In this document: positions 6,594-53,336 of the stretch, piece after piece
How positions within the stretch are numbered: the stretch's first letter is position 1
How the letters are laid out: each line of letters opens with the position of its first letter
Source of the DNA: Nocardia sputorum
GTDB taxonomy: Bacteria > Actinomycetota > Actinomycetes > Mycobacteriales > Mycobacteriaceae
Assembly: GCF_027924405.1 (NCBI RefSeq)
Contig: NZ_AP026978.1
Location: forward strand, 5,022,001 to 5,086,000
DNA: 64,000 bases
Reading direction: 5' to 3'
Made by a program: the position numbers and the translations under genes
Notes under the pieces: generated by a model
What the model saw: the letters and a program-made list of their open reading frames with translations, nothing else
Told to the model about the DNA's origin: nothing
Database searches by the model: none

Positions 6594-7016
<423 letters not shown>

Positions 7017-11353: not shown

Positions 11354-11483
11354 GTCGTCCTCCAGTTCATCGATCTGCCGGAGCCCCGTCGGCTCCGGCA
11401 CCAACCCTGCTGACCGAAAGTGGGCGTCTCAATAACCTCGGAGGTCATGGCGGCACCGCGCGATGGGGTGCTTAGCTGGTCGA

Positions 11484-12302
11484 ATGACATCGGTGCGGAC
11501 ACCTTCGCGAGCGGGCATCCTGCTGCGCGAATGGCGGCAACGGCGCAGGCTCAGCCAGCTCGATCTGGCGCTGGCCGCCGACACCTCCGCGCGGCACCTG
11601 TCGTACCTGGAGACCGGCCGGGCCGCACCGAGCCGGGCGATGGTGCTGCGGCTGTGCGAGACGCTGGAGGTGCCGTTGCGCGAACGCAACACGGTGCTGG
11701 TCGCCGCCGGTTTCGCGCCCGCTTACCGGGAGAGCGGCCTGGACGACGCCCATCTCGCGTCGGTCCGCGCCGCACTGGACACCATGCTGACCGCGCACCA
11801 GCCGTATCCGGCGGTGGTGATCGATCGCCTGTGGAACGTAGTGGTGGGCAACCCGGCGATGAGCGTGCTGATGGACGGCGTTCCCGAGCACGTGCGCGCG
11901 CCGCGACCGAACGTGTACCGGCTGGTGCTGCATCCGGACGGGCTCTCGGCCCGGTTGGCCAACCTCGCTCAGGTGCGCGGACTGTTCCTGGAGCGGCTGG
12001 GCAGGCAGGTCGGCGCGAGCGGTGACGCGGAACTGGCCGCACTGTACGAGGAGGTGTCGGCCTACCCCCATCCAGCCGGAGCGGGCGGATCGGAAGCGGA
12101 GGCAGGCGCGCCGCCGAGCCCGTTCGAGGTGCCGATCCGGATCCGGACGCCGGTCGGCGAATTGTCGATGTTCAGCACGATGGCCACCTTCGGCGCGCCC
12201 GCCGACGTGACGCTGTCGGAGCTGGCCATCGAATTGTTCTACCCTTTGGACGACTTCACCGCGGCCGCGCTGCGCGAGGCGGCGGCCGCGGCGAACACGT
12301 GA
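11484..12302 (+). CDS. XRE-type helix-turn-helix regulator with MmyB-like ligand domain
   Basis: A 272-residue transcription regulator. Residues about 8-65 are an XRE helix-turn-helix (LREWRQRRRLSQLDLALAA, then HLSYLETGRAAPS). The rest is the MmyB-like sensor domain common in actinobacteria (YPAVVIDRLWNVVVGNPA, APRPNVYRLVLHPDG), related to PAS folds and thought to bind small hydrophobic ligands. ATG 11484 (MTSVRTPSRAG) is preferred; an ATG 21 bases upstream is also in frame. The gene is divergent from the membrane protein and converges with the synthetase, with stops eight bases apart. It is the nearest candidate regulator of the peptide locus. Confidence 0.88.
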   Translation: MTSVRTPSRAGILLREWRQRRRLSQLDLALAADTSARHLSYLETGRAAPSRAMVLRLCETLEVPLRERNTVLVAAGFAPAYRESGLDDAHLASVRAALDTMLTAHQPYPAVVIDRLWNVVVGNPAMSVLMDGVPEHVRAPRPNVYRLVLHPDGLSARLANLAQVRGLFLERLGRQVGASGDAELAALYEEVSAYPHPAGAGGSEAEAGAPPSPFEVPIRIRTPVGELSMFSTMATFGAPADVTLSELAIELFYPLDDFTAAALREAAAAANT

Positions 12303-12309
12303 GCGACGC

Positions 12310-15300
12310 TCAGGCGTCCAGCATGGTTTCGTCCCACTCGCGATCCAGGTCCGGGTCGGCGGCGGAGAGCACCTCGTCCAGGCGCAGGCCCAGCTCGCCG
12401 ATGTTCGGCTCGCTCATCATGTTCAGGTGATCGCCCGGTACGTCGATCACCGTGAACCGGCGGGCCGCGTACTGCTTCCAGCCGTTGTCGGCGCTGTCGA
12501 ACATGCTGCCGACGGTCTTGTGCGCCAGGTCGACGCCCGGCGGCAGCCCCTCGGTCGCGCGCAACAGCGTGATATCGCGGTCGTACGGCGCGAGCTTGTA
12601 GTCCAGCATCGCCGAGTAGTTGGCGTAGAACACCTCGTAGAGCCGCCGGATCGCCTGCGGCGAGCTGTCGGCGGGCAGGATGCCCGACCGCACCGACTCC
12701 GCCAGCATCGCCGCGAACAACTCCTCGGAATTGTGCACGTCGGGCTCGAAATCCACCAAGGCGGACCGGCTCCCGCGCGCGTACCACAGCAGCTCGAGGA
12801 AGAACCACCGGATGAGTTTCTCCTCCGGGATCGGCGTCCGCGTGCGAGCGCGCAGCGCCATCGTGTCCAGCAGCGTCACGCTGGATACCTCGTGCTCGGG
12901 AAGCTGCCGGGCCATCTCCAGGGCGACGTAGCCGCCGAACGACCAGCCCGCCAAGTGATACGGGCCGGTCGGATGAACCCGTCGTACGGCCTGCAAGTAC
13001 GACTCGGCCATCGCCGGGATGGTCTTCTCCGGCGCGCTACCGGGATCCGCGCCCGCCGCCTGCAACCCGTACACCGGTCGATCGGGGTCCAGGTACCGCG
13101 CGAGAGTCAGGTAGCACAACACGTTTCCGCCGATCGGGTGCACCAGGAACACCGGCGGCTTGGCACCGCCCACGCTGATCGGCACCAGCGGGTCGAACGT
13201 GCGCCGGACGTCGCCCGCCCGCACCAGCGTGGCGAGCCCAGCGGCGGTCGGCGCGCCGATGAACGCGTCCAGCGGCACCTCGACGCCCCATCGGCGCGAC
13301 AACGCCATCACCACGCGCATCGCGCCGATCGACGTGCCGCCCGCGGCGAAGAAGTCGTCGTCGACGCCGATCGCGCGCAGTCCCGCGTACTCGGCCAGCA
13401 GTTCGACCGCCGACCGCTCGTACTCGTCGGCGGGCTCGCGCCGCGCCGACACCGAATCCGTGGCGTCCTCCCCGTAATCGCGCAGCGTCGCGTCGTCGCG
13501 CTTGCCGCTGGGCGTGCGAGGCAGTTCGTCGAGCCAGACGAACCGGGTGGGCACCATGTGCGCGGGCAGCATCGAGCGCAGATCGTGCCGCAGCGCGGCC
13601 AGATCGGTCTGCTCGGCCGCGCCGACCAGGAACGCGATCAGCGAGCCGTCGATGCCGCCGAAACCGCGGGCCACCACGGCGGCCTCGGTGATGCCGGGGA
13701 ACTTCTCGACCAGGCCCAGGATGCACAGTTCCACTTCGGCCGGCTCCACCCGGAAGCCGCGGATCTTGACCTGGCTGTCGCTGCGGCCGAGGCAGACGAT
13801 GTCGCCGGAGAACAGCCGGACACCGAGGTCGCCGGTGCGGTAGCGGATGCCGCCCGCGTGCGTGGCGACGAACCGCTGTGCGGTGAGCGCGGGCCTGCCC
13901 TCGTAGCCGCGGGCGATGCTGCGGCCGCCGAGGTAGATCTCGCCGATCACGCCGTCCGGCACCGGCCGCAGGGCGCTGTCGAGCAGTTCGACGGTGTCGC
14001 CGTCGACGGCGCGGCCGATGGGCGGCAGCGCGGGGAACTCGTCGGCCGGACCCGTGAGCGTGAACTTGGTCGCGACATGGGATTCGGTGGGGCCGTACTG
14101 GTTCTCCAGCACCAGGCCCGGCACCACTTTGCAGAGCGCGCGGATCTCATCGGTGATGCGCAGCTGCTCGCCGGAGGAGATCAGCACCTTGAGCTCGGTC
14201 GGGAACATCCGCCGCCCCACGGCGGCCTCGGCGAACGCCTGCAAGGCCACATACGGCAGGAACAGTCGTTCGATGCCCTCCTCCACCACCGTGTGCAACA
14301 ACTGCTCGACGTTCGAGCGCAGATCGGCCGAGCTCACGCGCAGGGTCGCCCCGGCCGCGAGGGTGGTGAAGATCTCCTGGAACGACACGTCGAAACTCAA
14401 CGGCGCCAATTGCAGTGTGCTCAGCAGGCCGGTGCCGGTGACCGCGCGATTCTGCCACTCCACCAGGGAGGTCAAGCCGCGGTGCGGCATCGCGACGCCC
14501 TTGGGCTCCCCGGTCGACCCGGACGTGAACAGCACGTACGCCACCGCGTCGGGCGAGATGTGATCCGGCAGCGCGACCTCGGCGCCGGGCGCGGAGTCGT
14601 CGTAGAGCGCGGAGTCGTCGAAGAGCGCGGCACTGTCCAGCACCAAGGCGGCGTCGTCGACGATGTCGCGATAGGCGGTGTCGGCGATCACCCGGTGCGG
14701 GCGGGCGCGATCGATCATCAGATTCAGCCTGGCCCGCGGATAGCTGACGTCCAGCGGGACGCACGCGGCGCCGATCCTGGTCAGGGCGAGCACGAGCAGC
14801 ACCAGCTGCGGGCGGCGCCCCATCAGGATGCCGACCCGGTCGCCCGGCGACACCCCGAGTCCCACCAGGCGCCGGGCCAGCCGATCGGAGCGCTCGATCA
14901 TCTCGTCGTAGGTGACCGATTCGTCGTCACCGGCCAGGGCGACGCGGGCGGGGTTGAGCGCGGCCGCCTCGGCCACCAGCGTGCCCACGTCACGCGCGGT
15001 CGCGGGACCGACGCCACGGTCGATCGCCCCGTCGGGATCGGCGACTATGCCGGCCAGCATGCGCAACTGGGTCAGCGCCACGGTCTCGCACTGCTCGGCG
15101 GTCAGCGTGTGATCGCCGTCGACCCGCAACCACATCCGGCCGTCGCGCGGGTCGGTGGCCGCGGTCACCAGCAGCTGGAAGTTGGTCTCCTCCCGCGCGT
15201 CGAAGTCCAGCAGGCGCACCCCGTCCAGCACCAGCATGGGCTGGAAGACGTGATAGTTGACGAAGTTGAACGCCGTCTCGAAGACCGGCCCGCCGTCGGC

Positions 15301-18300
15301 CAGGATCGACCGCAGCGGGTAGCGGCGGAACGGGTAGGCCTCGCGCTCGCGCCGGGCGAGCTGCTCCACCGCGGCGCGCCAGGTGGTCGCGGTCCGGTCC
15401 AACCGGATCGGCAGCGTGTTGAGGAACAACCCGGCCACGCGTTCGGCGCCGGCCCGGTCCGGGCGGCCGTGGCTCACCACGCCGGTGGTGACGTCCGTGC
15501 GGCCGGTGAGCGCCCGCAGCGCCAGGCAGTGCGCGGCCAGATAGACCGATTTCTCCGGAACCTGGTGGCGCGTGGCGAACGCCGACACCCGTTCGGCCAG
15601 CGCGCGCGGCACCAGGGCCCGGGCCTGCGGCACGCCCGCGACCACCGGCTGGTGCACCCCCAGCGCGGTGAGCGCGGTGGGTTCGGCCCCGGCCAGCGCG
15701 GTCCGCCAGTACGCGCGGGCCGCGGGGTCGTGCGCCGCGCCCTGCTCGGCCTGCGCGTACTCGGCCAGCACGGTGGCCGGATGCGGGGTGGCCTCCACCT
15801 GGGTCCGGGTCATGCCGAGGTGGTTGAGGTAGTCCAGCAGCAGTTCCAGCACCGACGTGGCGACGCTCCAGCCGTCCAGGATGGCGTGGTGGAAGCTCAG
15901 CACCAGGTCCACCGTGCCGACCGGTTCCTGCGGGCCGGGGCGGACGAACGCCCGGATGGCGAACAGCGGGGCCACCGAGATGTCGTACTGGGCGTGGGTG
16001 CGCTCTTGGAGATAGATCTCGATCAGGTCCTCGCCGTCCGCCTCGTCCATCGCCCCCAGGTCGACGATCTCGAGCTCGTAGGGCGGCGCGACGTGCACGA
16101 TCTGCAGCGGGACCGAATGCCTGCTCAGTTCGAACGACGAACGCAGCGCGGGTTGCCGCCGCACCAGCCGGTCCACTGCCTGCCGGAATTGCGCTGTATC
16201 CCAGGGGATTTCGAGCCGGTAGCGGAACGCGTCCTTGTAGGTGACCGAGTCGGTGCGTTCGATGCTGTGATACAGCATGCCCAGTTGCAGGGCCGTCGCC
16301 GGAAAGGCGTCCTCGGCTTGGTGCAATGCCGCCCGGTCGATCAGCGGCACCGTCTGCAGGGGCGCCGCGACGAGCTCACGGTCGTCGCGCCGGTCATCGC
16401 GCACGACGCGGGCCAGCTCGGCGATGGTCGGCGCCTGGTAGAAGGCGTCCACGTCGAAGTAGAGCCCCGCGCGTTCGGCGGCGGTGCGCACGGCCAGCGC
16501 GAGGATGGAATCGCCGCCGTGGGTGAAGAAGTTGTCGTGCACGCCGATCGACTCGACGCCGAGCACGGTTTGCCAGACCTGCGCGAGCCTGGCTTCGACA
16601 GCGGTTCGCGGTTCGCGGCCGACGACCGGCTCGGCGCCGTGGCCGAGCACGAGGTGTTCGGCGAGCGCGCGCCGGTCCAGCTTCCCGTTGCGGGTCAGTG
16701 GGATGCGGTCCACCCGGATCAACCGGGAGGGCACCATGTAGCGGGGCAGCCGGGCCGTGAGCTGCTCGGCGATCCGCTCGCCGGAGACGTCCTCCCCGAC
16801 GAAGTAGCCGACCAGTTGCACGCCGTGTGCCTCTGAGACTTCGTCCACCACGGCCGCCGCGCGCACCCCGGCGCAGCCCAGCATCGCGTTCTGCACCTCG
16901 CCGAGGGTGATCCGGTTGCCGCGGATCTTCACCTGGTCGTCGAAGCGGCCCAGGTACTCGAGGTTGCCGTCCGGCAGCCACCGCGCCAGGTCGCCGGTGC
17001 GGTACCGGCGGCGTCCCGGCACCCCGCGATCGTCGACGAACGCCGCCGCGGTCAGCTCCGGCCTGCCGCGATAGCCGCGGGCCACGCCGACGCCCGCGAT
17101 GTTCAGCTCCCCCGGCACGCCGACCGGCACCCGGCGTCCGATGTGGTCGAGCACGAGCAGGTCGATGTTGTCGATGGGGCGCCCGATCGGCACCACGTCG
17201 AGCGGTTCGTCGGCGGGGCAGTCGAAGTAGGAGACGTCGACGGTGGCCTCGGTCGGGCCGTAGAGGTTCACCAGCTGCGGCGCTGTCGCCCCGGCCGCGG
17301 CGAAGACCGCGTGGAACCGGCGCACCAGCGCCGGCGGTAGCGCCTCGCCGCTGCAGATCACCCGGCGCACGCTGCCGATCCGCGCGACCGTCGCCGGATC
17401 GGCCGCCAGCTCGTCGACGAACGCCGCCAGCATGGAGGGCACGAAATGCAGCACCGTCACGGCGTGCGCGGCGATCGCCTCGGCGATGCGACGCGGATCG
17501 CGCTCCCCGCCCGGTTCCAGCAGCGCCACCCGGGCGCCCGTGATCGCCCACCAGAACAGTTCCCACACCGACACGTCGAACGTGACCGGCGTCTTCTGCA
17601 GGATGACGTCCGCCTCGTGCAGGGGGTAGCGCCGCTGCATCCAGACAAGGCGGTTCACCACCGACCGATGCTCGATCATGACGCCTTTGGGCACGCCCGT
17701 GGAACCCGAGGTGTAGATGATGTAGCTGAGATCCGCTGGATGCGAGACGTTTTCGATCCCGCGCGCCGGGACGGTGTCGGCGACCGCGATCCTGGTGACG
17801 CCCAGCTCGTCGAAGACCGCCCGATGCCGCTCCCCCGCCACGACGAAGCGAGCCCCGCAATCGGCGAGCACTGTCTCGATGCGGGCGGCCGGGAAGTCCG
17901 GGTCGAGCGGCACGTAGGCGCAACCGGCCCGCAACACACCGAAGATCGCGACGAGCATCTCGGTCGAGCGGGCCAGCACCACCGGCACGCATTCGTTGCC
18001 GGTCGCGCCCAGCGCGCGCAGCCTCGCGGCGAATCCGTCCGCCAGCGCGGACAATTGGGCGTATCGCAGCGGTTCTTCCCCCGACCCGGCGACCGGTTCG
18101 ATCGCGATGCGTTCCGGATGCCGGGCGGCCACCTCGGCGACCAGCCGGTCGAGGGTGGTGTACGGGAAGTCCTCGCGCGGACCGGATTCGAACGCCGCGA
18201 TGGCCGCCCGCTCGCGCGCGGGCATCAGCGGCAGCGCCGAGATCGGCTCCTCGGGCCGGTCCAGCGCCGCCACCAGCAGGGCGCCGATGCCGCGCACGAC

Positions 18301-19569
18301 CGACTCCAAGGGGAAATTCTCGTCGAAGACGTCCCGGTCGTAATAGAGCTGAAGGTTCAGCGAGCCGTCGCGCGCGTGCTCGACGCCGAGGATGTTCAGC
18401 GCCTCGAGTACCGTGCCCGGATTGACGATGTCCAGGGTGCCGAGGATCTTGTCTAGGTGATCCGACGGCGGCATCTTGATGTAGGAGTACGCCACGTCGA
18501 ACAGCGGGGGCGCCGTCGGGTCGCTGCTGAGCGCGCGGGCCAGGTCACCGTAAGGAAAACGCTCGTAGCGCTTGAGTTCCCGGATCTGCGCGGCGACCTC
18601 GGTGGCGACCGCCGACAGCGGTCGGGCGGGGTCGACGCGGATGCGCAGGGGCACCACGTTCGTGCGGTGCCCGGAGGTGCGGAAGGTCTCCGGGCTGTGC
18701 CGGTTGAGCATCGGGACCCCGATCACCACCTCCTCGGAGCGGTGGATGGTGGTCAGGTAGGCGGCCAGCGCCGAAACGGTGAACGCGAAGACGGAGAAGC
18801 CGGTGGCTCGGATGCGGTCCAAGAACGCCGGTTCCACGACCACGCGCTGCCGTCCCCGGTTGACGTCGGGCGTGCTCGCCCGGCCGGAGAACAGGGCGGG
18901 GACCACGCCTTCGAAGCGGCGCACCAGCGCGTCGCGATCGGCCACCCACTGCGCGGAGGACAGGTATTCCTCGTGCTCGGCGGCGATCTTGCGGTAGGTC
19001 GCGGCGCCGCGGTCGGTCTGCTCGGTCACCGGATCCGGCTCGGCGAGTTCTTCGAGCGACAGGTCCGTGCGACCGTAGGTGTCCACCAGGGCGCTCCACA
19101 GCGCGTTCACGCCCCAGCCGTCGATCATGGCGTGGTGCATCGCCACGTACAGGTGGAAGTGGTCGGGCCCGTCGACCAGCGCGGCGATCCGGAACGGCTG
19201 CCGCGGCGGCGACGGCGTCACGTTGGCCCGGTTCACCCAGTCGCGACGGGCCGCGGCGGGATCCGACGCCCAGCTGAGATCGACCAGCTCGACCTCGGGT
19301 AGCTCGTCGGAGACCCACTGCCAGAAACGACCCTCGGAGAACTCGAATCGCAGGCGCAGCGCGTCATCGGCGAGCAGGGCCCGGCGCACCACCGCCCGCA
19401 ACCGGGCCATATCGAAAGGCTCGTCCAGAAACGCGCAGTAGGCGTTTCGGGTGACCGGCGCCGGGGCATACCGGTAGGCGACGGACAGCACATCGCGCTG
19501 GTACGCGCTGACCGGCCAGGCTTCGGGGGGTCTCTCGGAAGTAGCACTCGGTTCGAATGTCACAGTCAC
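12310..19569 (-). CDS. two-module non-ribosomal peptide synthetase (C-A-T-C-A-T-TE)
   Basis: A 2419-residue synthetase. Domains: C1 about 20-450 (HHAMIDG 145-151), A1 about 470-975 (YTSGSTGVPKG), T1 (GGDSI, Ser1021), C2 about 1075-1505 (HHAILDG 1227-1233), A2 about 1530-2030 (FTSGSTGEPKG), T2 (GGTSI, Ser2080), TE about 2130-2405 (GWSFGG Ser2210, Asp in LLDTM, His2381 in GDHLN). All catalytic motifs look intact. The A1 pocket reads D-V-W-H-I-S-L-V-D-K by alignment to PheA, essentially the serine code. A2 reads D-V-Q-F-I-S-Q-V-A-K, nearest to proline-type codes I remember but altered at two positions. An N-terminal condensation domain implies an acyl donor from outside. The product is probably an acyl-Ser-X released by TE. 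No MbtH gene is near. Confidence 0.95.
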   Translation of the reverse strand: MTVTFEPSATSERPPEAWPVSAYQRDVLSVAYRYAPAPVTRNAYCAFLDEPFDMARLRAVVRRALLADDALRLRFEFSEGRFWQWVSDELPEVELVDLSWASDPAAARRDWVNRANVTPSPPRQPFRIAALVDGPDHFHLYVAMHHAMIDGWGVNALWSALVDTYGRTDLSLEELAEPDPVTEQTDRGAATYRKIAAEHEEYLSSAQWVADRDALVRRFEGVVPALFSGRASTPDVNRGRQRVVVEPAFLDRIRATGFSVFAFTVSALAAYLTTIHRSEEVVIGVPMLNRHSPETFRTSGHRTNVVPLRIRVDPARPLSAVATEVAAQIRELKRYERFPYGDLARALSSDPTAPPLFDVAYSYIKMPPSDHLDKILGTLDIVNPGTVLEALNILGVEHARDGSLNLQLYYDRDVFDENFPLESVVRGIGALLVAALDRPEEPISALPLMPARERAAIAAFESGPREDFPYTTLDRLVAEVAARHPERIAIEPVAGSGEEPLRYAQLSALADGFAARLRALGATGNECVPVVLARSTEMLVAIFGVLRAGCAYVPLDPDFPAARIETVLADCGARFVVAGERHRAVFDELGVTRIAVADTVPARGIENVSHPADLSYIIYTSGSTGVPKGVMIEHRSVVNRLVWMQRRYPLHEADVILQKTPVTFDVSVWELFWWAITGARVALLEPGGERDPRRIAEAIAAHAVTVLHFVPSMLAAFVDELAADPATVARIGSVRRVICSGEALPPALVRRFHAVFAAAGATAPQLVNLYGPTEATVDVSYFDCPADEPLDVVPIGRPIDNIDLLVLDHIGRRVPVGVPGELNIAGVGVARGYRGRPELTAAAFVDDRGVPGRRRYRTGDLARWLPDGNLEYLGRFDDQVKIRGNRITLGEVQNAMLGCAGVRAAAVVDEVSEAHGVQLVGYFVGEDVSGERIAEQLTARLPRYMVPSRLIRVDRIPLTRNGKLDRRALAEHLVLGHGAEPVVGREPRTAVEARLAQVWQTVLGVESIGVHDNFFTHGGDSILALAVRTAAERAGLYFDVDAFYQAPTIAELARVVRDDRRDDRELVAAPLQTVPLIDRAALHQAEDAFPATALQLGMLYHSIERTDSVTYKDAFRYRLEIPWDTAQFRQAVDRLVRRQPALRSSFELSRHSVPLQIVHVAPPYELEIVDLGAMDEADGEDLIEIYLQERTHAQYDISVAPLFAIRAFVRPGPQEPVGTVDLVLSFHHAILDGWSVATSVLELLLDYLNHLGMTRTQVEATPHPATVLAEYAQAEQGAAHDPAARAYWRTALAGAEPTALTALGVHQPVVAGVPQARALVPRALAERVSAFATRHQVPEKSVYLAAHCLALRALTGRTDVTTGVVSHGRPDRAGAERVAGLFLNTLPIRLDRTATTWRAAVEQLARREREAYPFRRYPLRSILADGGPVFETAFNFVNYHVFQPMLVLDGVRLLDFDAREETNFQLLVTAATDPRDGRMWLRVDGDHTLTAEQCETVALTQLRMLAGIVADPDGAIDRGVGPATARDVGTLVAEAAALNPARVALAGDDESVTYDEMIERSDRLARRLVGLGVSPGDRVGILMGRRPQLVLLVLALTRIGAACVPLDVSYPRARLNLMIDRARPHRVIADTAYRDIVDDAALVLDSAALFDDSALYDDSAPGAEVALPDHISPDAVAYVLFTSGSTGEPKGVAMPHRGLTSLVEWQNRAVTGTGLLSTLQLAPLSFDVSFQEIFTTLAAGATLRVSSADLRSNVEQLLHTVVEEGIERLFLPYVALQAFAEAAVGRRMFPTELKVLISSGEQLRITDEIRALCKVVPGLVLENQYGPTESHVATKFTLTGPADEFPALPPIGRAVDGDTVELLDSALRPVPDGVIGEIYLGGRSIARGYEGRPALTAQRFVATHAGGIRYRTGDLGVRLFSGDIVCLGRSDSQVKIRGFRVEPAEVELCILGLVEKFPGITEAAVVARGFGGIDGSLIAFLVGAAEQTDLAALRHDLRSMLPAHMVPTRFVWLDELPRTPSGKRDDATLRDYGEDATDSVSARREPADEYERSAVELLAEYAGLRAIGVDDDFFAAGGTSIGAMRVVMALSRRWGVEVPLDAFIGAPTAAGLATLVRAGDVRRTFDPLVPISVGGAKPPVFLVHPIGGNVLCYLTLARYLDPDRPVYGLQAAGADPGSAPEKTIPAMAESYLQAVRRVHPTGPYHLAGWSFGGYVALEMARQLPEHEVSSVTLLDTMALRARTRTPIPEEKLIRWFFLELLWYARGSRSALVDFEPDVHNSEELFAAMLAESVRSGILPADSSPQAIRRLYEVFYANYSAMLDYKLAPYDRDITLLRATEGLPPGVDLAHKTVGSMFDSADNGWKQYAARRFTVIDVPGDHLNMMSEPNIGELGLRLDEVLSAADPDLDREWDETMLDA

Positions 19570-19681
19570 TCCTATCGCGACAGTCGCGGCACCGGCCGTG
19601 CGCGGATCTAACCAAGCCCACCCTGATCGCTGACACGCAAAGCTGCTACCACACTTATCCAGTTATCGATATCGCGAATCA

Positions 19682-19704
19682 CGGCATCGGCTGTGCCGAT
19701 GCCG
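19682..19704. terminator. hairpin between the two biosynthetic genes
   Basis: CGGCATCGGC (19682-19691) pairs with GCCGATGCCG (19695-19704) around a TGT loop. It lies 37 bases after the stop of the monooxygenase-acyltransferase gene, on the way to the synthetase. It may terminate or attenuate read-through, which would leave the synthetase with a promoter of its own in the AT-rich stretch 19650-19680 (contains TTATCGATATCGCGAA). Confidence 0.55.
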
Positions 19705-19740
19705 CGACTCTGCTGTTGTATCGCGGTGTATGCGGGCCGG

Positions 19741-22212
19741 TCAGCAGGCCGACAGCAGCGCGCGCACGCTTTCGTCGGCGAGCCGATCGGCTCGTTCGCG
19801 CGAGACCGCGGGCTCGACGTAGCCGATGTTGAGCGACAGCTCGTTGTGCGTCGCGTTGGCGGTGGCCATGATGAAGCCGCTGACGGACATGCCGGAGACG
19901 AATTGCGCGCCTTCCAGCTGCCAGGCGCCGATCTTGTCCGGGAAGGGGTAGCTGCCCAGGTAGGTCATGCAGAGATGACCCGGGCCGCGGGTGTCCATGA
20001 GCTTCACCGTGGACGCGCTGGCGGCCACCGACTTCGGCGCGGCCACCTTCAGTAGGTTCAGCGCGGACAAGTGATCACGTCGTTGCATCCGCGCGCCGTA
20101 TTCGCGCTCGATCTCCGCGGCGATCTCCCACAGCGAGGCCCACGGCGCGTACTTCGCCGGGGTGGCGATCATGCCCTGATAGGTGCCGACCTCGGTGTCA
20201 CCGGCGGCGCCGTCGAGGTGGTCGCGGAAGTTGACCGAGCTGCCGACGGTGTACCAGGTCGCCTTCTCGGTGCCGGCCTCCCTGGCCGCCGCGATCAGCA
20301 GCGCGGCCGACAGCGCAGCCTGCAGGCCGACGCCGTGGCGGTCGCATCCCGCGGTGAGCGCCTCGAGCTGGTCGCCGTCGAGGCTGCGGTGCACCACCCG
20401 GCTGCGCCGCTGCGCGGGCGGCGCGAGCGTGGTCGGCTCCAGCCTGCGCGGTTTGCGCAGCTGCGACTTCTGGTCGCGCAGAAATGAACTCGCGGTGCGC
20501 AGCGCACCGCCGGCACCTTGGAAGCGCGGCGGGAACAGCTCCTCCGGGCCCGGCCGGACCGGCGCGGGCGCGAAGTCGCCCCCTTCCCCGGCGGCCACTT
20601 GGAGCACCTGCTTGGCCACCGACAGCGCGCTCTCGCCGTCGGCGATGGCGTAGTGCAGCGTGACGATCAGCTCGTTGGTGCCGTCGGTCTCCTTGATCAG
20701 CACCGCCCTGGCCAGCGGGCCGGTGCGCCAGTCGAACGGCTCACGCAATTCCACCTCGTCGGCCTCGGCCAGCCAGTTCGTGCTGTCCTCGGATTCGATC
20801 ACCCGCAGCGGGATCGGCGCCTGTACCGGCACGAATCGCGGTGCGGTGCCGTCCGGTTCGGCGGCGACGGCGACCCGCAGGAGCGGATGTCGGCGCTGCA
20901 CCTCGTCCAAGCCCGCGCGAATCCGCTCGACCTCGACGTGTCCGCGGATTCGCACGCGCGACAGGATGTGCAGCGGCGCCAGCTGATCGGCGATCCAGTG
21001 CCAGCGCTCGACCGGCGAGAGTGGACGCGGCAGCCGCGCGGTCGGCCCGTCCGGCGCCGGGAAGGACATCGGCTTGCCGAGTTCCCGCAGGAAGAATTCG
21101 GTAGGCGCGTGCCGGAAATAGGTGTCGCGCACCCGCACCAAGCGCGGATCGGTGGTCTGTTCGATCTTGGCCAGCGAGGCCGAACCGTTGACGAACATGG
21201 CGGTGCGGTCGGCACGCAGCTTCTCGTAACGACGCAGCCCGGCAACCGGATCCAGGGCGTTGCGCAGCACACTGGCCAGCACGACCGCGTCCTCGATGGC
21301 GGCGTTGGCGCCCTGGCCGAGGCTGGGCAGCATCGGGTGCGCCGCGTCGCCGAGCAGCGTCACCCGGCCGCGACCCCACTGCGCGAGCGGCGGCCGATCC
21401 TGCGCGGGCACGGCCAGGATCGCCGATTCGTCGGTCTGCTCGATGCAGGCGCGCACCTCCGGCGCCCATCCGGCGTACAGGCGCAGCAGGTCTTCCTTGC
21501 CGCCCTGCCAGTTCGCGGCCTCGTCGGCGGGCAAGGTCTTGGTGCCCCACCAGTAGACCCGGCCGTGGCCGATGTCGTGGATGCCGAAACGCATTCCGGT
21601 GCCCCAGAAGTGCGCCGACAGGCCGCGGGCGACGTTGCGGTGCTCGAACGGGATGCAGGCCAGCCAGCACACGAAATTGCCGGGGCGCGGCTCGGCGCGG
21701 CCGTGCAATTGGGCGCGCACCATCGAGTGGATGCCGTCGGCGCCGACGAGCAGGTCACCCTCGGCGACCCGGCCGTCGGCGAACTCGACGCGCACGTGCT
21801 CGCCGTCGTCGACGAAGCGGGTGGCTTGCGCGCCGACGAAAGTCGGCGTATCACCGATCGCGCTCAACAGCACGTCGTGCAGGTCGGTGCGGTGCAGCGC
21901 CACGGCGGGCGCGCCGAGCTGGGCGTCGAGCCGATGCACCGGGAGCACCCGGATCGGGCTGCCGTCGGGGTTGCAGAAACGGAAGGTCTCGACCCGGCCG
22001 CCGCGCTCGAGCAGTTGCTCGTCGAGCCCGAGGCCGAGGGTGCGCAGCGCGTTGATGCCGTTGGCCTGCACGGAAAGTCCGAAGCCCTGCGCCCGCAGTT
22101 CCGGACCGGCTTCATATAGTTCGACGCCGAAACCCGCATGCCGCAAGGCGGCCGCGGTGGTGAGTCCTCCGATCCCCGCCCCGAGAACGACAACCTTGAT
22201 CGGACTGCTCAT
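19741..22212 (-). CDS. FAD monooxygenase fused to a condensation/PapA-type acyltransferase
   Basis: An 823-residue bifunctional enzyme. Residues 1-380 are a class A flavin monooxygenase: GAGIGG (11-16) for the FAD ADP part, GADG (157-160) and GDAAHPMLPSLGQG (288-301). Residues 390-823 form a condensation-domain or PapA-like acyltransferase: HYAIADG at 520-526 is the HxxxDG active site, and TVGSSVNFRDHL resembles the conserved VNFR-type motif of that superfamily. The first domain would hydroxylate or oxidise a substrate; the second would move an acyl chain from CoA or a carrier. ATG 22212 (MSSPIKVVVLG) starts right at the FAD fold; an upstream ATG adds an unrelated 45 residues. It precedes the synthetase on the same strand, 171 bases away, and is probably a tailoring or starter-unit enzyme. 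Confidence 0.85.
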   Translation of the reverse strand: MSSPIKVVVLGAGIGGLTTAAALRHAGFGVELYEAGPELRAQGFGLSVQANGINALRTLGLGLDEQLLERGGRVETFRFCNPDGSPIRVLPVHRLDAQLGAPAVALHRTDLHDVLLSAIGDTPTFVGAQATRFVDDGEHVRVEFADGRVAEGDLLVGADGIHSMVRAQLHGRAEPRPGNFVCWLACIPFEHRNVARGLSAHFWGTGMRFGIHDIGHGRVYWWGTKTLPADEAANWQGGKEDLLRLYAGWAPEVRACIEQTDESAILAVPAQDRPPLAQWGRGRVTLLGDAAHPMLPSLGQGANAAIEDAVVLASVLRNALDPVAGLRRYEKLRADRTAMFVNGSASLAKIEQTTDPRLVRVRDTYFRHAPTEFFLRELGKPMSFPAPDGPTARLPRPLSPVERWHWIADQLAPLHILSRVRIRGHVEVERIRAGLDEVQRRHPLLRVAVAAEPDGTAPRFVPVQAPIPLRVIESEDSTNWLAEADEVELREPFDWRTGPLARAVLIKETDGTNELIVTLHYAIADGESALSVAKQVLQVAAGEGGDFAPAPVRPGPEELFPPRFQGAGGALRTASSFLRDQKSQLRKPRRLEPTTLAPPAQRRSRVVHRSLDGDQLEALTAGCDRHGVGLQAALSAALLIAAAREAGTEKATWYTVGSSVNFRDHLDGAAGDTEVGTYQGMIATPAKYAPWASLWEIAAEIEREYGARMQRRDHLSALNLLKVAAPKSVAASASTVKLMDTRGPGHLCMTYLGSYPFPDKIGAWQLEGAQFVSGMSVSGFIMATANATHNELSLNIGYVEPAVSRERADRLADESVRALLSAC

Positions 22213-22478
22213 CGAACCTGCACTCTCATCGAACCACTCGACGGCACAGGTGCTTTCTGCCGCGACGCGGCCCACGGGCCACACTGCCCGCGCGAAACCA
22301 TCCCAGCGAGCAGCGCTGACCGAGGTCACTGCGTCGACCCCGGCCAAGCAGGCCCCTGGGACGCCTGTGCCTGACCGACGGGAAGCCTACCGCTACTCGG
22401 CGCGCAAGGCAGAGTTGAAGTGAGATTCACCGCATCGCGCGAATGTGAAACGCAAATGTGTTGCAATGGGGCATAATT
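22213..22478. other. non-coding upstream region of the peptide locus
   Basis: Together with the following terminator this makes 315 bases without a gene, ahead of the monooxygenase-acyltransferase. The stretch 22440-22478 is AT-rich and, on the minus strand, contains TTGCAA and CACATT that could be parts of a promoter for the locus. No clear regulator-binding palindrome was seen. Confidence 0.35.
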
Positions 22479-53261: not shown

Positions 53262-53336
53262 GGGCGTATAGCTCAGCGGTAGAGCACTGGTTTTACACAC
53301 CAGCGGTCGGGGGTTCGATCCCCTCTGCGCCCACCA
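53262..53336 (+). tRNA. tRNA-Val (anticodon TAC), CCA encoded
   Basis: The acceptor GGGCGTA (53262-53268) pairs with TGCGCCC (53326-53332) with one T-G wobble. The D arm is AGCTCAGCGGTAGAGC, the anticodon stem is CTGGT/ACCAG around TTTACAC (anticodon TAC, valine), and the T arm contains GGGGGTTCGATCCCC. Discriminator A is at 53333 and a genomic CCA follows at 53334-53336. It lies at the end of the conserved block, next to the decayed accessory zone. Confidence 0.97.

Follow-up and report, generated by a model that had tools for sequence, protein, structure and literature searches.

A Nocardia sputorum locus of the probable bacterial pyrrolizidine alkaloid kind with an azeC-azeD-type fusion gene

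A pair of genes in Nocardia sputorum very probably makes up a biosynthetic cassette that belongs with the bacterial pyrrolizidine alkaloid/azabicyclene systems. What was observed, and underlies this reading, is the order of the domains, their motifs and active-site residues, the homology with AzeD and the pairing of the genes across genomes. Judged by sequence, the pair is laid out like the clusters for bacterial pyrrolizidine alkaloids such as pyrrolizixenamide (pxaAB), azabicyclene (azeBCD) and legonmycin. According to excerpts of PMC11457151, PMC11177316, PMC7820566 and PMC8748450, pyrrolizidine alkaloids and lipocyclocarbamates need a C1-A1-T1-C2-A2-T2-TE NRPS and a Baeyer-Villiger monooxygenase (BVMO); the NRPS found here is C-A-T-C-A-T-TE, the architecture described for these pathways. 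The second gene reads as an azeC-azeD-type fusion of two finishing enzymes that are separate proteins in Pseudomonas, because its C-terminal half is nearest to AzeD and because the P. aeruginosa genes stand in the order azeA/clpP2, azeB (NRPS), azeC (FAD monooxygenase), azeD (excerpts of PMC9040856). By the Rosetta-stone argument, AzeC and AzeD would be functionally tied, since they are fused here.

Organization of the locus

The window, the whole 64,000-nucleotide stretch that was analysed, is part of a one-contig 7.43-Mb genome. A preliminary description of this DNA had placed a two-gene locus at 12310..22212, and an ORF check bears it out: both reading frames run without interruption at those positions and carry the Pfam domains described. 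On the minus strand the FAD fusion gene comes first and the NRPS gene follows after 171 nt. The fusion gene (19741..22212, identified from its ORF and by sequence and fold comparison) encodes 823 aa from an ATG at 22212, the mechanical ORF extending to a TTG at 22347; Pfam recognizes FAD_binding_3, Condensation and PapA_C in its product. The NRPS gene (12310..19569, identified from its ORF and Pfam) encodes 2419 aa from a GTG at 19569, or from a GTG at 19563 behind AGGAG, with Pfam matches to Condensation (two), AMP-binding (two), PP-binding (two) and Thioesterase, which upholds the domain order first reported. NCBIfam offered a specific family for neither protein.

Among the 20 neighbouring ORFs (2019 to 33693), Pfam gave matches for 14 and none for six; these matches include RNase H/phosphatase, CT398-like, NIF3, aminotransferase, CobD, RNB, MmyB-like regulator and GNAT proteins, and on this content a larger cluster was rejected. 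In these same 20 ORFs neither a salicylate nor an N-hydroxylase gene was recognized, and the FAD half has its matches among flavoproteins of the aromatic-hydroxylase type, which led to the rejection of a siderophore locus, whether hydroxamate or nocobactin-like. The MmyB-like regulator, at 11463-12302 (+) and convergent with the NRPS gene, has an MLTR ligand-binding domain; domains of this type bind fatty acids. Elsewhere in the window lie an RNase P RNA at 6596-7010 (-) (RNaseP_bact_a, 265.7 bits), whose overlapping mechanical ORFs need more evidence before they count as genes, and a tRNA-Val (tac) at 53262-53336 (+), the sole tRNA found within the 64 kb.

Domains and predicted substrates of the NRPS

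All NRPS domains lie on the minus strand. C1 (18205..19524; residues 16-455, located by Pfam) has an intact HHAMIDG motif, and in a structure-sequence search the RzmA starter C domains ranked best (7c1k, 68.9 bits; 7c1h, 67.6 bits), followed by EntF and CDA; 7C1H is RzmA according to an excerpt of PMC7804268. By this search C1 is nearest to the lipid-starter type of C domain, as had been proposed. Column extraction from A1 (16645..18144) and A2 (13465..14997) returned DVWHISLVD and DVQFISQVA, the same first nine residues as reported before. The A1 code reads as serine-loading, again as first proposed, and agrees with what we take to be serine codes, such as that of EntF. Complete codes of the form DVWH[F/I/V/L]SL[V/I]D occur in 137 of the 138 rows with two A domains, a redundant set of proteins and locus ORFs. 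The first carrier domain, T1 (16405..16590, Pfam), has GGDSI at residue 1018, presumably the donor type expected ahead of dehydrating C domains.

C2 (15025..16320), with HHAILDG intact, is nearest in a structure-sequence search to the C domains of McyA (8jbr, 219 bits) and AmbE (7r9x, 132 bits), with the next match at 104 bits. Excerpts of PMC10880069 cluster AmbE-C2 and LgnD-C2 as dehydrating C domains and count microcystin among the sources of the CmodAA clade. C2 thus looks like a dehydrating C domain, and serine would therefore be expected to become dehydroalanine, which would then be built into a bicycle. In two relatives (L027/L065, which are one locus, and L068) the NRPS has an extra C2-like domain, seen as two or three C2 matches in a row, which perhaps separates dehydration from condensation.

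The preliminary description could not place A2 with confidence. It is now best placed as proline-type: the closest pocket regions are those of GrsB (79.9 bits) and TycB (74.1 bits), modules that we take to be proline-specific, followed by two-domain LgrA chains at 57 bits in total (29 for the better domain) and others at 41.4 bits or less. A2 therefore probably loads proline. The earlier caution holds to this extent, that proline is not certain, because three or four of the nine code residues differ from the DVQSIAHVV of GrsB and TycB and because the comparison over 274 aa is less decisive (TycB 174.7 bits; Txo, fuscachelin and others 165-168 bits). These code positions are what could be said for an amino acid other than proline, in which case the product would be no fused bicycle. 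We consider this improbable, given the wide margin by which the pocket is nearest to GrsB and TycB, the intermediate codes of relatives (DVQFIAQVA, DVQYISHVA) and the retention of LgnC-type residues in the BVMO. Across the 138 rows, 98 have an A2 like that of the window, 37 have DVQxxVxEV, in proteins whose A1 match begins near the N-terminus, and three are other or incomplete. The module ends with T2 (13216..13437, Pfam; GGTSI at residue 2077) and TE (12385..13167, Pfam; nucleophile motif GWSFGG at residue 2208).

A Baeyer-Villiger monooxygenase half of the LgnC kind

The FAD half (21052..22212, minus strand), assigned by Pfam and residue comparison, appears to be a LgnC-like BVMO domain. Its H201, R208, Y220 and W222 (21547..21612, minus strand) reproduce H200, R207, Y219 and W221 of LgnC (UniProt A0A0U1XUB1) at exact spacing, all offset by one, and on comparison with these published positions the flavoprotein carries LgnC-type Baeyer-Villiger residues. 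In excerpts of PMC11457151, the H200A and W221A variants of LgnC are inactive, Y219F is 95% less active and R207Q keeps about half, while S48A and T295A are still active and Q350A retains about 30%; by simple offset, which is not a true alignment, S48, T295 and Q350 have no match in the fusion. The half also contains GDAAH, and YWWGTKT where an excerpt of PMC7820566 gives YWWxTKN, the last residue being T.

Among 25 FAD copies beside such an NRPS, the Arg and Trp are kept in all, the Tyr in 24 and the His in 19; the His that is essential in LgnC is Gln in the other six (L071, L073, L074, L075, L076, L078). In L063, whose stretch lacks an NRPS of this kind, the four positions of the FAD homologue are YKYF. 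The unaligned pattern H-x6-R-x11-Y-x-W occurs in 107 of 120 listed full-length matches and in 112 of 120 listed FAD-only matches, counts that are no independent control because the matches were found by similarity to the fusion. LgnC, PxaB, BraC and AzeC are absent by name among the 120 matches listed of 327, of 7214 and of 6017. Two tandem BVMO genes lie near the NRPS in L066 and L068.

An AzeD-like half with tyrosine at the catalytic position

The C-terminal half (19744..21042, minus strand) has the PapA/condensation fold, and the preliminary description had taken it for an acyltransferase that might provide the acyl donor for C1. Against PDB sequences its best match is 8s6l (309.8 bits), whose chain is named phthiocerol dimycocerosyl transferase; the same entry, titled 'AzeD dehydratase of Pseudomonas aeruginosa', ranks first in a fold search with a predicted model (mean pLDDT 90.8) as query, at 39% identity, TM-score 0.96 by target length and rmsd 1.5. 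On both the sequence search and the modelled fold, AzeD is thus its nearest relative. The dehydratase label comes only from that entry title, and the code 8S6L is not mentioned in the open-licence literature searched. As its nearest relative is deposited as a dehydratase, it is improbable that the domain supplies C1 with its acyl group. The catalytic-position His is also gone: in place of the HHxxxDG of PapA/condensation-type domains the window has HYAIADG (20635..20655, minus strand), with Tyr521 at the catalytic His position and Asp525 kept, where the alignment gives PHIIADG for 8s6l. With this His missing, the domain may not do what AzeD does.

Across an alignment of 142 domains, in which some genes appear both as a protein row and as a locus row, 65 of the 133 fused copies have His at the position of the second His of HHxxxDG, 64 have Tyr, two Phe, one Cys and one Gln; all nine separate AzeD-like copies have His. 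On a 114-row tree, built by a quick method with motif columns excluded and later Streptomyces-type rows thinned, the residue requires five changes, the minimum possible being four; the tree is midpoint-rooted and does not fix the direction of the change. One Nocardia subclade (P0018-P0021) has His at the position. Across 13 near relatives dN/dS is 0.07-0.15 for the AzeD-like domain and 0.05-0.12 for the FAD half, rising in more distant loci to as much as 0.39 and 0.24, respectively. The Tyr-variant domain is under purifying selection, and its decay was rejected on these low values. A stand-alone AzeD-like protein is encoded on a Streptomyces plasmid (L063:11944-13317) among FabF, P450, type III PKS and aminomutase genes, in a stretch that holds no NRPS of the window's kind.

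Distribution and genomic context

Of 150 Nocardia genomes searched, 46 have a full-length fusion, 35 of them with at least 65% identity and 11 with 49-52%. The pyrrolizidine-type reading would give this hitherto unassigned NRPS locus a concrete product class. All 25 named Nocardia loci (L001-L025, several species occurring more than once) have the FAD fusion with at least the start of the NRPS alongside, L002 and L020 covering half of the NRPS and L015 only C1. The pairing is conserved far beyond chance. In 24 of these 25 loci it adjoins the same RNase H/phosphatase gene (g18), L022 being elsewhere, and the MmyB-like regulator (g15) is present in 18, three of the other seven being short contigs.

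A further 24 loci are from Nocardia with four exceptions (L026, L062, L063, L083); 22 of the 24 were chosen because they resemble the fusion, with no regard to the NRPS. In 23 of the 24 the NRPS stands beside a BVMO, L063 being the exception. Of these 23, 12 have the AzeD-like domain as a fusion and eight as a separate protein, and in three it is absent from the stretch; L027 and L065 have identical tree rows, leaving 22 distinct loci, and some of the NRPSs run off their stretch. Many relatives have the order NRPS-BVMO-AzeD, and on a Streptomyces plasmid the NRPS and fusion genes overlap by 4 bp among transposase and group II intron genes. In a class-wide sample of 394 genomes, four had such proteins at E 1e-85; three of the four, the genome of the window among them, are Nocardia, which leaves few contexts from other genera.

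In 11 of the 25 Nocardia loci (L012, L015-L022, L024, L025) C1 is 46-57% identical to that of the window, set against 65-85% for the other domains where comparable; the domains of L015 and some of L020 are missing, and A2 values of 33-34% in L002 and L020, whose contigs end inside the NRPS, are matches to another A domain. Between the window and L016, A1 is 79% and C1 52% identical; between L016 and P0258 the values are 78% and 77%. The change in identity comes at about residue 500, where C1 meets A1. This pattern fits replacement of the acyl-selecting C1 between Nocardia lineages, with faster C1 divergence on one branch as a less favoured alternative. Replacement would bring different acyl chains and would make these loci natural donors for starter-domain swapping.

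Proposed route and alternatives

Every chemical step of the route proposed here is deduced, as are proline as substrate, the nature of the acyl chain and the function of the AzeD-like domain. C1 would acylate Ser on T1 with acyl-CoA or acyl-ACP from primary metabolism, and C2 would dehydrate the N-acyl-Ser to N-acyl-dehydroalanine and condense it with proline on T2. Release by TE through carbon-carbon cyclization would give a [5+6] dihydroindolizinone, into which the FAD half would insert oxygen in a Baeyer-Villiger reaction; the resulting [5+7] oxazepine-dione would then open, lose CO2 and contract. By the formulas in an excerpt of PMC11794875, an azetidine indolizidinone (C13H18N2O3) and the compound that the BVMO makes from it (C12H18N2O2) differ by CO, 27.995 Da. 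The AzeD-like domain would act in cis on a post-oxidation intermediate, in recyclization and dehydration to the pyrrolizidine. For pyrrolizixenamide the corresponding steps after ring contraction are described as non-enzymatic (excerpt of PMC11177316). The pathway is predicted to yield either a pyrrolizidine with an N-acyl group or the [5+7] carbamate that precedes it; this prediction is weakest at A2 and at the Tyr-variant domain. It agrees with the small oxidized product from N-acyl-Ser-X first suggested; that suggestion had missed the dehydrating C2 and the LgnC-type Baeyer-Villiger residues.

The model originally put forward, a simply oxidized N-acyl-Ser-X dipeptide with an acyltransferase as C-terminal domain, draws on the PapA_C and Condensation matches and on a match to the PapA5 family. 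We regard it as very improbable: the catalytic His is replaced, the nearest relative is deposited as a dehydratase, and LgnC-type residues together with a dehydrating C2 predict ring formation. It is quite possible, though we lean against it, that the AzeD-like half is no longer an enzyme and serves as a tether, an oxygenase lid or an NRPS docking domain. Three of the 23 NRPS-BVMO loci have no AzeD-like domain in their stretch, from which it follows that the core pathway could run without one; loss of the His in the window lineage and the non-enzymatic late steps of pyrrolizixenamide (excerpt of PMC11177316) point the same way. Against it stand the Tyr kept, with the conserved Asp, in nearly half of the fused copies, the His of one Nocardia subclade and the purifying selection, though a structural role would fit the last as well.

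A rather unlikely variant keeps the assembly line and the bicycle and ends in a rearranged or trapped carbamate, either brabantamide-like or a [5+7] compound. Trapped [5+7] carbamates are known, namely legoncarbamate and clipibicyclene (excerpts of PMC11457151 and PMC7820566), BraC and PxaB share their first step while enzyme and side chain set the outcome (excerpt of PMC11177316), and an additional AzeD-like domain could steer it. On the other hand, AzeD belongs to the azabicyclene pathway, no sequence feature shows trapping, and no glycosyltransferase was recognized in the 20 neighbouring ORFs. Returning to the pyrrolizidine-type cassette that we prefer, one may speculate further that the His-to-Tyr AzeD-type domain of Nocardia/Mycobacteriaceae has a changed reaction, so that the polypeptide converts the Baeyer-Villiger intermediate into a bicyclic scaffold found in neither the pyrrolizidines nor the carbamates known so far, its acyl chains differing between lineages through C1 replacement; we think this unlikely. 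The His/Tyr contrast offers a natural experiment on what the condensation fold does beyond acyl transfer, and the fusion makes the role of AzeD testable in one protein. Degenerate X domains recruit oxygenases, a case comparable in logic to that of the Tyr-variant condensation-fold domain.

Comparison with known pathways

The preliminary description knew of no named pathway with this layout, a statement overtaken by the precedents of pxaA/pxaB, azeB/azeC/azeD and the LgnC-type clusters. The aze cluster of P. aeruginosa (azabicyclene/azetidomonamide) has in common with the window an NRPS, a BVMO and an AzeD-type domain, AzeD being 39% identical to the C-terminal half. In contrast, the azeC and azeD equivalents of the window are fused and stand upstream of the NRPS, the His of the AzeD HxxxDG is Tyr, and azeJ, fabH2 and an acyl carrier gene were not recognized in the 20 ORFs near the pair. 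The pyrrolizixenamide genes pxaA/pxaB of Xenorhabdus stockiae likewise form a complete two-gene cassette, there of a bimodular Ser-Pro NRPS with TE and a BVMO (excerpts of PMC11177316 and PMC11794875), and pxaA has been expressed both by itself and together with pxaB (PMC11794875); in this pathway the post-oxidation steps are non-enzymatic, whereas the BVMO of the window carries an AzeD-like domain. Legonmycin LgnA-D from Streptomyces sp. MA37 shares the LgnC-type BVMO residues and has the dehydrating C2 and the proline second module that are predicted for the window, but differs in using Thr, in an A1-T0 split from the rest and in needing the TEII-like LgnA (excerpts of PMC11457151 and PMC8748450). 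Brabantamide BraB/BraC has the same NRPS architecture and a homologous BVMO, yet the pathway leads to a lipocyclocarbamate that has undergone rearrangement and bears a long, rhamnosylated side chain (excerpt of PMC11177316).

Searches of the open-licence literature gave no description of the fusion, of the His-to-Tyr domain or of the Nocardia locus; excerpts of a Nocardia genome-mining survey (PMC7413640) do not mention the locus, and the main texts of PMC7820566, PMC8748450, PMC11457151 and PMC11794875 do not contain the word PapA. Beside these known systems, what is new here is the azeC-azeD-type fusion and a Tyr, under purifying selection, for the catalytic His of a condensation-type domain, together with the single chromosomal site shared by 24 of the 25 near Nocardia loci and the apparent replacement of the starter C1 between lineages.
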